From Deltaproteobacteria bacterium SM23_61 (GTDB lineage: Bacteria; Desulfobacterota; SM23-61), in the NCBI GenBank assembly GCA_001304105.1, contig LJUR01000007.1, positions 1-48,380 on the forward strand: a DNA stretch of 48,380 bases, read 5' to 3'. Numbering within the stretch: position 1 is the first letter of the stretch; each line of letters opens with the position of its first letter. This document shows, piece by piece, positions 13,299 to 48,380 of the stretch. Below the pieces are notes generated by a model, which was given only the letters and a program-made list of their open reading frames with translations, had not been told where the DNA came from and searched no databases. A program made the translations under genes and the position numbers.

Positions 13299-15215
13299 AT
13301 GTTGGACTATGTGGGTTTGATCCCTTTGTTCCCGGCTATCGGGTTCGCCGTGAATCTCCTCTTCGGGAGGCGGATGTCCAAGAGCGCGGTGGGTTTCATC
13401 GCCTGCGCGGCCATCGGGCTCTCTTTCCTCGTTTCCCTCCTGGTCTTCGCCGCTCTCCTGAAGCTTCCTGCGGGCGCCCGCTCGGTGGAAATAATCATTT
13501 ACCCCTGGATCCTTTCCGGTGAATTCCAGGCCCACATCGCCTTCCTGGTCGACCCCCTGTCCTTGGTCATGATGCTGGCGGTTTCCGGGGTCTCCTTCAT
13601 TATCCATATTTATTCCGTGGGTTACATGCATGACGATCGCGACTTCGCCCGGTATTTCACCTACCTCAACCTCTTCGTCTTCTTCATGCTCACCCTGGTG
13701 GCGGCCAACAACTTCCTCCTCCTGTTCGTGGGATGGGAAGGCGTGGGACTCTGCTCCTATTTCCTCATCGGGTTCTGGTATGAGAAGAAATCAGCCTCGG
13801 ACGCCGGCAAGAAGGCCTTTATCGTCAACCGGATCGGGGATTTCGGTTTTCTCGTGGCGATTTTCCTGATCTTCGTGACCTTCGGGACCGTGGATTTCAC
13901 CCAGGTCTTCGCTGCGGCTCCCGGAAAGCTGGAAGCGGGGAGCACCCTGGTTACCCTGATTACCCTCCTTCTCTTCATGGGGGCTACCGGGAAATCGGCC
14001 CAGATCCCCCTCTACACCTGGCTTCCCGACGCCATGGAAGGGCCCACTCCGGTCAGCGCGCTGATCCACGCCGCCACCATGGTGACCGCCGGCGTGTACA
14101 TGGTGGCCCGGTGCAATGTTCTTTTCCTGCTGGCCCCCACCTCGATCCTGATCGTGGCCATCATCGGGGCGGCCACGGCCATCTTTGCCGCCTCCATCGG
14201 GCTGGCCCAGAATGACATCAAGCGGGTCCTGGCCTATTCCACCATCAGCCAGCTGGGGTACATGTTCCTGGCCTGCGGGGTGGGGGCCTTCACCGCCGGG
14301 ATTTTTCACCTCGTGACCCACGCCTTTTTCAAGGCCCTCCTCTTTCTGGGGGCGGGCAGCGTGATGCATTCCTTGGCCGGAGAGCTGGACATGCGCAAGA
14401 TGGGCGCCCTCAAGCCCCACATGCCCCGCACCTACTGGACCTTCCTCATCGGCACCCTGGCCATCGCCGGGATCTTTCCCTTTGCCGGCTTCTTCTCCAA
14501 GGATGAGATCCTCTGGAAGGCCCTGACCCAGGGCGGCCTGGTCTTCTGGCTCATCGGTGCGGTCGCCGCCTTCATGACCGCCACCTATATGTTCCGAGCT
14601 GTCTTCATGACCTTTCACGGAAGCTCCCGGGTGGATTCCCATGTGGCCCATCACCTCCATGAGTCCCCCGGGATGATGACCGTTCCCCTGCTCGTCTTGG
14701 CTTTCCTCTCCTTGGTGGGGGGCTTCGTCGGCTTCCCCATCGTGGAAGGCTGGAACAAGTTCGGCGAATTCCTGGCCCCGGTCTTCTCCCAGCGCGCTCC
14801 TGCCGAAGCGGTCCACCACGCGGTCAGCTTCGAGGTGGCCATGATGCTGGTCTCCATGGCCATCGCTGGCCTGGGGATTCTTCTGGCCTACAGGATGTAC
14901 ATTCAGAATCCCCGGCTCCCGGATCAGATGGCCGAGCGTTACCCTGCGCCTTATTCCCTGATTGCCAACAAATACTGGGTGGACGAGATTTACGACTGGG
15001 TCTTTGTCGGGCCCCTGATCCGGTTTTCCGTCTTTCTCTGGAGAATCATTGACGATGTCCTGGTGGACGGCACGGTCAATGGCGTGGCCGCCGTGGCCCG
15101 GGGCGGCAGCGAGGTTTTCAAGCGGCTGCAGACGGGTAACATCCAGGGTTACGCCCTTTCCATCCTGGTGGGAGTGGTAATCCTGGTCGGGTATCTTCTA
15201 GTAAACAGCAAATAA
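13299..15215 (+). CDS. nuoL: NADH-quinone oxidoreductase subunit L
   Basis: Antiporter-like proton-pumping subunit at the distal end of the membrane arm; 638 residues, about 16 helices. It shows the key Glu in FVGWEGVGLCSYFLIGFW and the key Lys in GKSAQIPLYTWLPDAMEGP, followed by SALIHAATMVTAGVYM. The C-terminal lateral helix and last TM (from about residue 530) are present, as expected for NuoL and not for Mrp antiporter subunits. It has AAGGAG eight bases before ATG. Confidence 0.95.
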   Translation: MLDYVGLIPLFPAIGFAVNLLFGRRMSKSAVGFIACAAIGLSFLVSLLVFAALLKLPAGARSVEIIIYPWILSGEFQAHIAFLVDPLSLVMMLAVSGVSFIIHIYSVGYMHDDRDFARYFTYLNLFVFFMLTLVAANNFLLLFVGWEGVGLCSYFLIGFWYEKKSASDAGKKAFIVNRIGDFGFLVAIFLIFVTFGTVDFTQVFAAAPGKLEAGSTLVTLITLLLFMGATGKSAQIPLYTWLPDAMEGPTPVSALIHAATMVTAGVYMVARCNVLFLLAPTSILIVAIIGAATAIFAASIGLAQNDIKRVLAYSTISQLGYMFLACGVGAFTAGIFHLVTHAFFKALLFLGAGSVMHSLAGELDMRKMGALKPHMPRTYWTFLIGTLAIAGIFPFAGFFSKDEILWKALTQGGLVFWLIGAVAAFMTATYMFRAVFMTFHGSSRVDSHVAHHLHESPGMMTVPLLVLAFLSLVGGFVGFPIVEGWNKFGEFLAPVFSQRAPAEAVHHAVSFEVAMMLVSMAIAGLGILLAYRMYIQNPRLPDQMAERYPAPYSLIANKYWVDEIYDWVFVGPLIRFSVFLWRIIDDVLVDGTVNGVAAVARGGSEVFKRLQTGNIQGYALSILVGVVILVGYLLVNSK

Positions 15216-15302
15216 GCTTTCAGCTATCAGCGTAGGGGCGATTCATGAATCGCCCCTACTGAAAGACCGCTGAAAGCTGAATGCTGACAGCTGATCGCTC
15301 TT
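15216..15302. repeat. GCTGA-word repeat interrupted by a palindrome, between nuoL and nuoM
   Basis: The left piece GCTTTCAGCTATCAGC (15216-15231) and the right piece (15260-15302: GAAAGACCGCTGAAAGCTGA, then ATGCTGACAGCTGATCGC) belong to the same word family as 8077-8161. The 28-bp palindrome at 15232-15259 sits between them. Confidence 0.8.
15232..15259. repeat. 28-bp perfect palindrome, copy 1
   Basis: Half-site GTAGGGGCGATTCA followed directly by its exact reverse complement. A second copy at 47109-47136 has the half-site GTAGGGGCAATTCA, so the single difference is matched on both arms. The behaviour is that of a REP/MITE-like mobile palindrome. Confidence 0.9.
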
Positions 15303-15320
15303 TTGGAAGGAGTCGTTTTC

Positions 15321-16895
15321 ATGAGCAGCCTGGCAGGCATTCCCCTTCTGACTCTCATTACCTTCTTCCCCATGGCGGGAGTCGTGGTCCTCCTCTTTCT
15401 GGACAAGGAGAAGAAGGAAACGATCCGCCGGGTCACCCTCGGGGTGGCCCTGCTGGAGTTTCTCTTCTCCCTTCCCCTCTTCTTCCACTTCCGGCTGGAC
15501 ACGGCGGCCATGCAGTTCGTGGAGAAGGTGCCCTGGATTCCGGAATACGGGATCACCTACTACGTGGGGATCGACGGGATCAGCCTGTTTCTGGTCCTGC
15601 TCACCACCTTTCTTACCTTCATCTCGGTCATGGCCTGCTGGAACGACATTCAGGACAAGGTGAAAGAGTTCATGATCTGTCTCCTTTTCCTGGAGACGGG
15701 GATGATCGGAGTCTTCGTTTCCCTGGATCTTTTCCTCTTCTACGTTTTCTGGGAAGTCATGCTCATCCCCATGTACCTTCTCATCGGGGTCTGGGGCAAT
15801 CCCAAGCGCCGCATCTATGCTGCGGTCAAGTTCTTCATCTATACCATGGTGGGAAGCGTCCTCATGCTGGTGGCCATCCTGGTTCTCTACTTCCACAACG
15901 GGGCGGTCACCGGCAACTACACCTTTGACCTGTTGCAGCTCTACAACCTTCAGGTGGCCCGGGACATTCAGGTCTGGCTCTTCCTCGCTTTCGGCCTGGC
16001 CTTCGCCATCAAGGTTCCCATGTTCCCCTTCCACACCTGGCTGCCCGACGCCCACACCGAGGCTCCCACCGTGGGATCCGTGCTCCTGGCCGCGGTCCTT
16101 CTGAAGATGGGAACCTATGGATTCCTGCGCTTCAGCATTCCCCTCTTCCCCCAGGCCTCCATTCAGCTGGTTCCCCTGATCTCGGTCCTGGCCCTCATCG
16201 GAATCGTTTACGGGGCCCTGGTCTGCCTGGTTCAAAAGGACCTGAAGCGCCTGATTGCCTTTTCCTCCGTCTCCCACCTGGGTTTTGTCATGCTGGGCAT
16301 CTTTGCCCTGAACGCTCAAGGCGTCGAGGGAGGGATTCTGCAGATGATCAACCACGGCTTTTCCACCGGGGCCCTCTTCCTGCTGGTAGGGATGATCTAT
16401 GAACGCCGGCACACCCGGATGATCGAGGATTTCGGCGGGCTGTGGAAACAGATGCCCGTCTTCGCCGCTTTCTTCATGGTGGTGACCCTGTCTTCCATCG
16501 GCCTGCCCGGGCTGAACGGGTTCGTGGGCGAGTTTCTGATCCTGGTGGGGACCTTCAAAGCCAACGGACTTTACGCGGTGATCGGCGCCACGGGGGTCAT
16601 CCTGGCCGCGGCCTACATGCTCTGGATGTTCCAGCGGGTCATGTTCGGAGAATTGACCAAGGCGGAGAACCGGGTTCTTAAGGATCTCTCCAAACGGGAA
16701 ATTCTCGTCCTTTCCTGCGCGACCCTTTTCATCTTCTGGATCGGGGTCTATCCCCAGACCTTCCTTAGCCGGATGGAACCCACGGTCAAGGCCTACCTGG
16801 TCCAGGTTCAGCACAAATACCAGGCGGGTATCCAGCTCCAGGAAGGGGAAAAGATCCGGGTGGCCCAGGCGGATTCATGGCCGGACAAAAAATAA
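15321..16895 (+). CDS. nuoM: NADH-quinone oxidoreductase subunit M
   Basis: Second antiporter-like pump subunit, 524 residues and about 14 helices. The key Glu is in [17 protein letters not shown] and the channel Lys in [27 protein letters not shown] and [14 protein letters not shown] follow as in the family. ATG 15321 has GGAAGGAG eight bases upstream; a TTG six codons earlier is also in frame but overlaps that site. Confidence 0.95.
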
Positions 16896-46420: not shown

Positions 46421-47074
46421 TTATGGAATCTCCAATAAGATTTTCCCCGGCTTGGGCTCCACCTGATAGTTTTTGGCCGGCTGAAAGCGACGCATGGCGG
46501 AAAGCCGGCCTTCTTTCTTGAGCTTCTCGTAGATGAGCGTCCAGGCACAGTCCTTGTTCGGGTCCACTTCGCATTTCCCGTTGTTGGTCCCGCCGCAGGG
46601 GCCGTTGACCAGTCCCTTGTGGCAGGCGGTCACCGGACAGATTCCCCCCGTCTCTCCCAAGATGCATTCTCCGCACTGCGTGCAGACTTCCTGGAAGTGG
46701 CCGGTTCCCAATTCCTTTCCGATAAAGAGCGTGTCCAGGGCAGGAATCACCGGCAGGTCCGTGAAGCGGGAAAGGGTCTGCACTCCGAAGGCACAGGTTA
46801 GGATGAGCAGGGCCTGGGATTCCTTCATGGCCGGAAGGAAACGGCAAACCATCTCCTCGGTCAGGTTGTCGCAGGCCACGGGGATGACCTCGCTTCCGGT
46901 CACCACCTTCTGGGCTGCCTGCATCTTTTCCTTCATGGCCTCGACCTCGGCCACGCCCCCCGTGTGGGCCATGGTGGTACAGGTCCCGCAGCCCACGATA
47001 AAGACCCGCTCCATGCCTTCCAACAGCCTCAGGATCTCTTCGATGGACTTCTGTCTGGTGATCGATCGAATCAT
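46421..47074 (-). CDS. metV: Methylenetetrahydrofolate reductase Fe-S/zinc subunit
   Basis: 217 residues of the MetV family (methylene-THF reductase C-terminal-domain protein). A Cys-rich core holds CGTCTTMAHTGG, VACDN, LILTCAFG and the terminal cluster CTQCGECILGETGGICPVTA then C-x-KGLVNGPCGG, C and C, expected to bind Fe-S and/or zinc and to carry electrons to MetF. ATG 47074 follows GGAGG at eight bases. It sits between the GltD-like flavoprotein and metF genes. Confidence 0.88.
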   Translation of the reverse strand: MIRSITRQKSIEEILRLLEGMERVFIVGCGTCTTMAHTGGVAEVEAMKEKMQAAQKVVTGSEVIPVACDNLTEEMVCRFLPAMKESQALLILTCAFGVQTLSRFTDLPVIPALDTLFIGKELGTGHFQEVCTQCGECILGETGGICPVTACHKGLVNGPCGGTNNGKCEVDPNKDCAWTLIYEKLKKEGRLSAMRRFQPAKNYQVEPKPGKILLEIP

Positions 47075-47081
47075 ATCTCGT

Positions 47082-47181
47082 TCCTCCAAGCCAAGAGCAA
47101 GGAGCGGCGTAGGGGCAATTCATGAATTGCCCCTACTATTTGCTCTCCGCCCTATGCTCCATGCTCCCTGCTCCTTGCTAT
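47082..47181. repeat. AGCAAGGAGC-word repeat enclosing a 28-bp palindrome
   Basis: CCAAGAGCAAGGAGCGGC on the left (47089-47107) and TTGCTCTCCGCCCTATGCTC, CATGCTCCCTGCTCCTTGCT on the right (47140-47180) are inverted to each other. The palindrome at 47109-47136 lies between, the same arrangement as at 15216-15302 but with another word family. Confidence 0.75.
47109..47136. repeat. 28-bp perfect palindrome, copy 2
   Basis: Half-site GTAGGGGCAATTCA followed by its exact reverse complement. It differs from the copy at 15232-15259 by one base per arm (G to A and the matching C to T), so symmetry is preserved. Confidence 0.9.
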
Positions 47182-48380
47182 TTACCGGCTGAGGTCGCAC
47201 CGCAGGCAGCGCTTGGCCTCTTCCCGGGCCTTCTCTTCGGCAAACCCGCACTCGATCTCCTTGAAGGAAAGCCGGCGTTCCTCCGGGGGGAGAATGGTCA
47301 TCCGTTCCCGGCCCTTTTCCACCGGCGATTCCTCCAGGTCCAAAGGCCGGGTCTCGGCCATCAATTCCGCCCGGGCGTCGATGATTTCCACCGGCGTCCG
47401 GTCCCCCCGCAGGTATTTATCGATGGCCATGGCCCCTCGCCGGCCGGCGGCGATGGCCTGGATCACGTAGGTGGGCCCGGTTACAAAATCTCCGCCGGCA
47501 AAAATCCCCGGTACGTTGGTCGCCAGATTATTGGGGTTGACCACCAGGGTTTCCCAGCGGGTCCGTTCCAGCTTGCTGTCCGCTGGCAAAAAGGAGAGGT
47601 CTGGAGCCTGACCCACGGCCGGAATCACCGTGTCGGCATCGACAAAGACCTCTGTCCCGGGAAGCGGCATGGGTTTTCTCCTGCCGGTCTCGTCCATTTC
47701 GCCCAGCTCCATGCGGATGCACTCCAGTCCCCTGACTCGCCCGGCGTCGCGGATGATCCGGGTGGGACTGATCAAAAAATGCACTCGGACCCCTTCTTCC
47801 AGCGCTTCGTTGTACTCCACCTCGGTGACCTGCATCTCTTCCCGGGACCTGCGGTAGTAGACATCCACCTCCTCCGCCCCCAGCCGGAGGGCCGTCCGGG
47901 ATGAATCCAGCGCCGTGTTTCCCCCGCCGATCACCGCCACTCTTCTCCCCAGTCGGAATTTTCTCTCCATCTTCACGTCCCGCAGGAAGGACAAGCCGTA
48001 AAGCAACCCTTCGACTCCTTCTTCTTCTCCGGGAATCCCCACCCGCTGGCTCTTCTGGGTTCCGGCGGCGATGAAGACCGCCTCATATCCTTCCTTGAAT
48101 ATATCGTTGATGGAAAACTGGGTTCCGATGGGATGGTTGTAGCGGATCTCCACCCCCCGGCGGACGATGTATTCGATCTCCTTCTGGAGCATTTCCCTGG
48201 GCAGCCGGAAATCGGGGATGGCCACAGAAAGCATCCCCCCTCCTGCTCCCAGCGCTTCGAAGACCGTTACCGGGTAACCGAGGCGGGCCAGAAAAAAAGC
48301 GCAGGTCAGGCCTGCCGGCCCCGCCCCGATGACCGCTGCTTTTTGCGACCGGGTCCGGGGAAAGGGCTCCGGGGGAACGG
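47182..48380 (-). CDS. GltD-like FAD/NAD(P) oxidoreductase (5' end outside the window)
   Basis: About 399 residues in the window, open to the right edge. An FAD Rossmann motif AAVIGAGPAGLTCAFFLARL (48320-48260 region), GAGGGMLSVAIPDFRLP, an NAD(P)H Rossmann motif VAVIGGGNTALDSSRTALR and the terminal FAD motif GIFAGGDFVTGP are seen; the end CLRCDL is typical of glutamate-synthase small-subunit-like electron-transfer flavoproteins. An internal ATG at 48234 is not the true start. The upstream part, probably with ferredoxin-like clusters, is not visible. With MetV/MetF it likely delivers NAD(P)H electrons. Confidence 0.88.
   Translation of the reverse strand, partial: VPPEPFPRTRSQKAAVIGAGPAGLTCAFFLARLGYPVTVFEALGAGGGMLSVAIPDFRLPREMLQKEIEYIVRRGVEIRYNHPIGTQFSINDIFKEGYEAVFIAAGTQKSQRVGIPGEEEGVEGLLYGLSFLRDVKMERKFRLGRRVAVIGGGNTALDSSRTALRLGAEEVDVYYRRSREEMQVTEVEYNEALEEGVRVHFLISPTRIIRDAGRVRGLECIRMELGEMDETGRRKPMPLPGTEVFVDADTVIPAVGQAPDLSFLPADSKLERTRWETLVVNPNNLATNVPGIFAGGDFVTGPTYVIQAIAAGRRGAMAIDKYLRGDRTPVEIIDARAELMAETRPLDLEESPVEKGRERMTILPPEERRLSFKEIECGFAEEKAREEAKRCLRCDLSR

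Follow-up and report, generated by a model that had tools for sequence, protein, structure and literature searches.

What preserves the symmetry of a palindrome when its sequence changes? The question is raised by a stretch of 48,380 nucleotides from Deltaproteobacteria bacterium SM23_61 (contig LJUR01000007.1, positions 1 to 48,380; this whole stretch is referred to as the window), in which an earlier note had described two perfect 28-nt palindromes that differ at one position per arm. Analysis of the window bore this description out. Both palindromes are present (Table 1), they are the only such sites at up to three mismatches, and they differ by one compensated pair at positions 9/20, which is G.C in copy 1 and A.T in copy 2. 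No such palindrome site was found in 100 dinucleotide shuffles of the window. Folded as single-stranded DNA, the copies form hairpins of -12.9 kcal/mol (z -7.4, copy 1) and -11.9 kcal/mol (z -6.4, copy 2). A GT[AG]G foot with its reverse complement at the other end is present in both copies.

Table 1. Palindromes, neighbouring genes and word arrays in the window.
Feature	Position	Strand	Evidence
Copy 1, double-foot REP GTAGGGGC-GATTCATGAATC-GCCCCTAC	15232..15259	.	Palindrome check and single-strand DNA fold
Copy 2, double-foot REP, A.T allele, GTAGGGGC-AATTCATGAATT-GCCCCTAC	47109..47136	.	Palindrome check and single-strand DNA fold
nuoL 3' part (NADH-quinone oxidoreductase subunit L), precedes copy 1	14607..15215	+	NCBIfam TIGR01974, E 2e-36 (partial sequence, score under whole-protein cut-off)
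nuoM 5' part (subunit M), follows copy 1	15321..15971	+	NCBIfam TIGR01972, E 9e-69 (partial sequence, score under whole-protein cut-off)
Methylene-tetrahydrofolate reductase C-terminal-domain protein	46421..47074 (start codon picked by eye)	-	Pfam PF12225, E 1.7e-35
Glutamate-synthase small-subunit-like oxidoreductase	47182..48234	-	Family search
Left arm of inverted word array at copy 1, TCAGC-type words	15215..15231	-	Sequence
Right arm of word array at copy 1, GCTGANN words	15260..15303	+	Sequence
Left arm of inverted word array at copy 2	47093..47108	-	Sequence
Right arm of word array at copy 2, GCTCCNT words	47137..47182	+	Sequence

Each copy sits between co-oriented genes, the copy 1 pair on the forward strand and the copy 2 pair on the reverse strand. 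Copy 2 lies upstream of the start of the PF12225 gene and directly past the stop of the glutamate-synthase-like gene. At both copies the left-hand words are reverse complements of the right-hand words, with 89% complementarity between the arms at copy 1 (15215-15232/15268-15285) and 92% at copy 2 (47093-47105/47170-47182). Several genera of the family also have inverted arrays of 7-base words (GCTGANN, GCTCCNT) at nuoL-nuoM (L299-L305), with varying length and filling.

The genome of the window (G000; 4.24 Mb in 286 contigs, 88% complete) was searched for the ends of the palindrome. The pattern GTAGGGGC-N4..30-GCCCCTAC occurred exactly in 48 places, 43 of which are perfectly symmetric by hand count, and its reversed-pattern control gave none; with the empty shuffles of the window, these counts rule out chance palindromes. 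A generic REP pattern allowing three mismatches was discarded as noise (112 matches against 165 in the reversed control). Apart from the core of the window copies, the cores GGTTCGCGAACC, ACGATGCATCGT and ACGCTGCAGCGT were found in this genome, and a GTGG...CCAC form of the foot occurs at C116. One half-degenerate REP, GCGATTCGCGAATCGCCCCTAC (L043:2084-2107, C281), lies within an ORF whose translation resembles an ABC-transporter ATP-binding protein.

Copies within three mismatches of copy 1 also number 48 in this genome: 33 are identical to it, 10 carry one change, three carry one compensated pair and two carry a compensated pair with one more change. Among them 36 are symmetric and 12 asymmetric. 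All five copies with at least two changes contain a compensated pair, with an extra unpaired change in two of the five. Across the phylum, the R...Y form of the inner 22 bases was found in 23 of 395 genomes, and 61 of the 64 places among the matches listed were symmetric (G.C or A.T), as tallied by hand with at most five places per genome. The earlier note had proposed a genome-wide count of symmetric against asymmetric variants as the check on chance; asymmetric copies do exist (12 of 48 here, 3 of 64 among the phylum matches listed), yet the symmetry is still not chance, since every multi-change copy in G000 contains a compensated pair. The symmetric G.C and A.T forms co-occur in eight phylum genomes among the matches listed, and by their distribution they look like two co-circulating alleles. 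The same-genus relative G001 holds 44 copies of the 22-nt inner form. Elsewhere in the phylum, G192 holds 79 copies of the GGTTCGCGAACC core and G073 holds 36 copies of the ATTCATGAAT core; no transposase of the subclass 2.4 type was found in G073 at E<=1e-12. G164 holds 24 copies of a GGTT core, and the one gene examined there (of two matches) is of the GACC type.

Comparison with relatives revealed sites with and without the REP. At nuoL-nuoM the REP is present in G000 and, decayed, in G001, and it is absent from G002 to G007. In G002, G006 and G007 the same place holds an inverted word array whose axis is filled by DNA other than the REP, and in G003, G004 and G005 it holds shorter word stretches. 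The array without a REP in three relatives indicates that at copy 1 the array probably predates the REP. At the copy 2 site, G001 has a short spacer with neither array nor REP. The loci matching copy 2 in G004, G006 and G007 (L307, L308, L310) gave no REP at up to four mismatches, and those in G001 and G005 (L306, L309) gave just poor REP matches away from the gene start; in all of these the surrounding DNA was too diverged to place the junction. In G002 and G003 the closest relatives of the copy 2 gene are distant (40-41% identity). The suggestion that word arrays serve as insertion targets is borne out in part, probably for copy 1 and not as a general rule. For 36 solo copies in G000, five of which belong to the TIR element described below, mean flank complementarity was 7.0 against 6.0 for swapped flanks, which is barely above the swapped pairs. 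Seven of the 36 beat 95% of the swapped pairs, both window copies among them. From these comparisons, word arrays would be at most one insertion target among several.

The orthologous REP also bears on how the symmetry arises. Template switching in a hairpin transfers a change on one arm to its partner, a process known as quasi-palindrome correction, and by itself it could yield symmetric variants by mutation instead of selection. One-arm forms exist in G000 for all three two-sided changes, at position 9 (C259), as GTGGGGG (C27) and as GTAAGGG (C69, C76, C10), and one compensated pair is among the five changes of the nuoL-nuoM REP in G001. The same ortholog has three uncompensated pairs, so that change in place is mostly asymmetric there, and the coexistence of A.T and G.C forms in eight genomes points to old alleles copied many times. 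Gene conversion between the arms, which the earlier note had offered, finds little in its favour in this sole orthologous pair. We consider a purely mutational origin of the symmetry unlikely; such a process is compatible with recognition of the hairpin by a transposase, the explanation that we favour.

That explanation starts from genes in which the palindromes are nested. In G000 a palindrome with the ACGATGCATCGT core lies in frame within a RAYT-like gene, and the same arrangement was found in G001 (with the core of the window), G002, G010 (in a stretch with stops), G013, G018 and G045. In G143 an FKMN-type gene contains the window core (G.C form, flanked by A.T copies), and the A.T form occurs inside or beside such genes in G306, G266, G318 and G208. 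In two of these genes, of G143 (L285, G.C) and G318 (L253, A.T), the REP with the window core is in frame between the HuH and Y motifs. A tnpA gene bordered by window-core REPs occurs in G001, G143, G306 and G266; the G001 gene, likewise FKMN-type, itself carries the window core in the G.C form with a GTGG foot, is frameshifted in the assembly and has a perfect copy directly behind it. No gene so bordered, and no transposase with the window core, was seen in the 88%-complete assembly of G000, where the sole gene of the type carries ACGATGCATCGT. The lead towards a TnpA-REP transposase was right for same-genus and same-phylum genomes, which have the window cores inside or beside such genes. The proposed recognition of the fold by a protein is borne out to the extent that sequence can indicate it.

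Family assignment of these genes rests on several matches. The motifs NH[IFV]H, WQ and YIxNNP are present in a six-gene alignment (A1), and Pfam Y1_Tnp matches the L285 and L253 proteins. The L043 gene scored 70.6 bits against NCBIfam REP_Tyr_transpos, under the 80-bit cut-off. Pfam Y1_Tnp has 13 matches in G000; among the 11 stretches examined, double-foot REPs were found just in L089 and L091, at a distance of over 2 kb from the gene in both. The AlphaFold model of L285 (mean pLDDT 81.7) matches the REP-bound E. coli TnpA_REP structure 4er8 with E 1.6e-6 and TM 0.50, and in this model the REP-coded stretch is a low-confidence loop preceding helix 104-124.

Public genome contigs scanned with alignment A1 gave relatives from many phyla, of which the best 80 of 516 were used. 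A total of 85 genes were usable, comprising 79 of the best 80 public loci (L199, with no motif pair, was left out) and six phylum loci. A hairpin score of at least 11 between the HUH and WQ motifs was found in 58 of the 85 genes. The mean hairpin score was 12.0 in this interval, against 6.5 upstream, 8.0 downstream (a value that may include flanking REPs) and 6.1 in codon shuffles. Translation passes through the internal REP in either of two frames (50 and 47 cases, with four cores seen in both), which argues that the DNA and not the peptide is conserved. Analysis of 83 distinct internal 28-mers, selected by their ends with up to four mismatches, revealed Watson-Crick pairing at core pairs 9-13 in 79% of cells; the share was 22-32% when the partners were slid and 33% when the halves were swapped. 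The position that varies in the window is G.C in 37, A.T in 24, A.C in eight and G.T in five of these 28-mers. Four-base agreement between internal and flanking cores was seen in 39 of 55 genes; shuffles reached 4.7 on average and 11 at most. In L178, L190, L155 and L233 the REP-coded insert seems to be tandem-multiplied (RAGVERAGVERVGLERAGLE in L178 is one case), an appearance that would fit duplication of the REP in the gene.

A gene that contains its own REP supplies a protein together with its DNA partner, and comparison of these pairs showed covariation between the REP core and the alphaC helix next to it. For prediction of the core, 59 reference genes (of the 85) and 52 test genes (of 77 phylum genes) were usable in their core, their helix and their ends. 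The nearest reference gene by a 22-residue alphaC window supplied the prediction for the first four core bases, with ties sharing credit. All four bases were exact in 25.4 of the 52 genes when the helix was the predictor, in 10.5 for the N-terminus, in 3.5 for the C-terminus and in 2.4 for shuffled labels (maximum 9.2 in 1000); the N-terminus, too, outpredicts the shuffles. Prediction by the helix was exact in 23.2 of 28 genes at an identity of at least 0.7 and in 2.0 of 10 at 0.55 to 0.7, and it fails below 0.55 (0.2 of 14). Among pairs of genes with N-terminal identity below 0.5, same and different cores were separated with an AUC of 0.84 by the helix, 0.55 by the N-terminus and 0.48 by the C-terminus.

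Covariation was scanned over 103 protein positions and six core positions in 107 genes, relatedness being handled by an 80% identity filter only. Pairs with Z>6 made up 51 of 132 in the helix, 15 of 288 in the N-terminus and none of 198 in the C-terminus. The best helix positions (-9/-8, -5, -2/-1 and +2/+3) are on one face, and the N-terminal maxima of Z fall at positions -25 to -17, close to where alphaB ends. The alphaB end (positions -25 to -15, counted back from the residue after MPNHxH) covaries chiefly with core base 6, the neighbour of the hairpin apex, which suggests that this end of alphaB may form a second contact surface. GATT and AATT cores share one helix type, and core position 1 alone is tied weakly to the helix; this weak tie is read as tolerance.

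Two sources of a spurious signal were considered. The REP overlaps the helix window in just three of 113 genes, so translation of the REP does not account for the covariation. Because helix and REP lie side by side in the gene, joint inheritance could create part of the covariation. In 16 genes without an anchored internal core and with a flanking REP, the nearest helix matched four bases in five and at least three bases in 11; permuted predictions gave 1.2 (maximum 5) and 4.0 (maximum 10), respectively. This flanking comparison is somewhat cleaner; several of the 16 genes still hold internal REP remnants, so it is not fully independent. Copies away from the gene were found in 5 of 8 genomes of the ATTC type against 16 of 387 others (Fisher p 1e-5) and in 4 of 9 of the GGTT type against 16 of 386 others (Fisher p 5e-4); these counts were entered by hand, with the transposase type known just for genomes with examined loci.

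Many copies in G000 belong to a larger repeat, and the palindrome might be a passive internal part of it that multiplies with the element and owes its symmetry to inheritance from one copy. Alignment of flanks placed about 20 copies within an element of about 340 bp with terminal inverted repeats (TIRs) CTAGTGTCGTGTCCC/GGGACACGACACTAG, whose left half has 41 genome matches, one of just 24 bases. Of the 41 matches, 30 loci were counted by eye as distinct elements; 12 contain the REP, 14 have a different segment of about 19 bp in its place and four end or diverge earlier. Examples of the element, in REP-bearing and REP-less versions, are at L034:1364-1700 and L316-L345. The window copies have flanks that do not match the element, and together with 29 others they lie outside it, of 49 copies with full flanks (after by-eye removal of five misfiled ones). 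Other cores are symmetric too, and other phyla have such REPs in and around transposase genes. A passenger origin is accordingly rated as decidedly improbable. Most improbable of all is that the palindromes act as RNA, as mRNA hairpins that stabilise or attenuate transcripts and keep their pairing for the RNA fold: the co-oriented neighbours of both copies, the good folding of array plus REP (z -6.8 and -6.0, with DNA parameters) and the view, in the available part of PMC3733652, that REPs are transcribed and act as RNA in many species are in keeping with it, but the window has no Rfam match at gathering thresholds, the nuoL-nuoM REP is absent in six of seven relatives (three with another array filling), the same palindromes are nested in transposase genes with a core that tracks a protein helix, and among the unpaired cells at core position 1 A.C is no rarer than G.T (8 against 5), which gives no sign of G.U tolerance.

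The reading that we prefer, and hold to be very probable, is that the window palindromes are non-autonomous double-foot REPs of the TnpA_REP/RAYT subclass 2.4, with a core read by alphaC, that arrived by insertion and gained more copies in G000 via the TIR element. On this reading, REPs folded in a single strand with a GTAG foot at either end would be recognised by Y1 (HUH) transposases, in which a region common to these enzymes would bind the conserved GTAGGGGC ends and the alphaC helix would bind the variable core. One core would belong to each helix type, the FKMN-like helix going with the core of the window. Core position 1 could be G.C or A.T provided that it is paired, which would give the compensated difference between the copies. 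Insertion would have brought the REPs to their sites, which in the case of copy 1 was the axis of an inverted word array already in place, and in G000 many further copies would have spread by riding within the TIR element. Binding, cleavage and transposition are the expected activities, and the symmetry would be kept because the hairpin is the thing recognised.

For the recognition code itself our leaning is positive by a little. In subclass 2.4, a face of alphaC (-9/-8, -5, -2/-1 and +2/+3 around the FK pair) would read the stem bases, the alphaB end would relate to the apex base, and REP and helix could be inherited as one re-targeting cassette. The hairpin pair belongs to a known mobile kind, and the part worth a bench test is the helix-core rule. 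Genes with their own REP provide 111 usable enzyme-substrate pairs, in which helix residues can be swapped against cores directly. If true, the rule would explain symmetric hairpins with different cores dispersed across many environmental genomes. Among the matches listed in a search of the open TnpA_REP/RAYT literature, and in passages of PMC6006769, PMC8266576, PMC3733652 and PMC2817692, no report of a helix-core link was found; searches with the literal letters of REP, peptide and words gave unrelated titles only, among the matches listed.

Several features of the window REPs are already known from other systems. According to the available part of Quentin et al. 2018 (PMC6006769), subclass 2.4 TnpA_REP (group 4 of Bertels) has double-foot REPs of the form GT[AG]G...C[TC]AC, and its genes often carry a REP in frame between the HuH and Y motifs. 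The window palindromes fit this known pattern, with GT[AG]G at one end, its reverse complement at the other and a long stem, and the genes of the relatives have the motifs NH[IFV]H, WQ and YIxNNP. In contrast to the systems described there, no cognate gene was found in the G000 assembly, and G000 has many copies in a TIR element. That part of the paper treats the insert as a peripheral extension of possibly little impact, with no core-helix link, whereas the core covaries with alphaC in the present analysis. The 24 families of GTAG-tagged REPs of Di Nocera et al. 2013 (PMC3733652), compared by the description in the available part, share with the window REPs the GTAG tag, a short palindrome and complementary stem variants; they likewise are intergenic, sometimes intragenic, and lie near RAYT genes, but they are tagged at one end and the window REPs at both. 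The REPtrons of E. coli, S. maltophilia and Marinomonas (PMC8266576, available part) likewise combine a Y1 transposase with a single-stranded GTAG REP. They belong to groups 2 and 3, and the E. coli REPs need a bulge, whereas the window REPs are perfect palindromes. In the E. coli enzyme K82 of alpha3 contacts the REP. How perfect-palindrome REPs of group 3 are recognised is posed as a question in that text, which later only speculates on helix contacts, including a reading of these REPs by alpha3.
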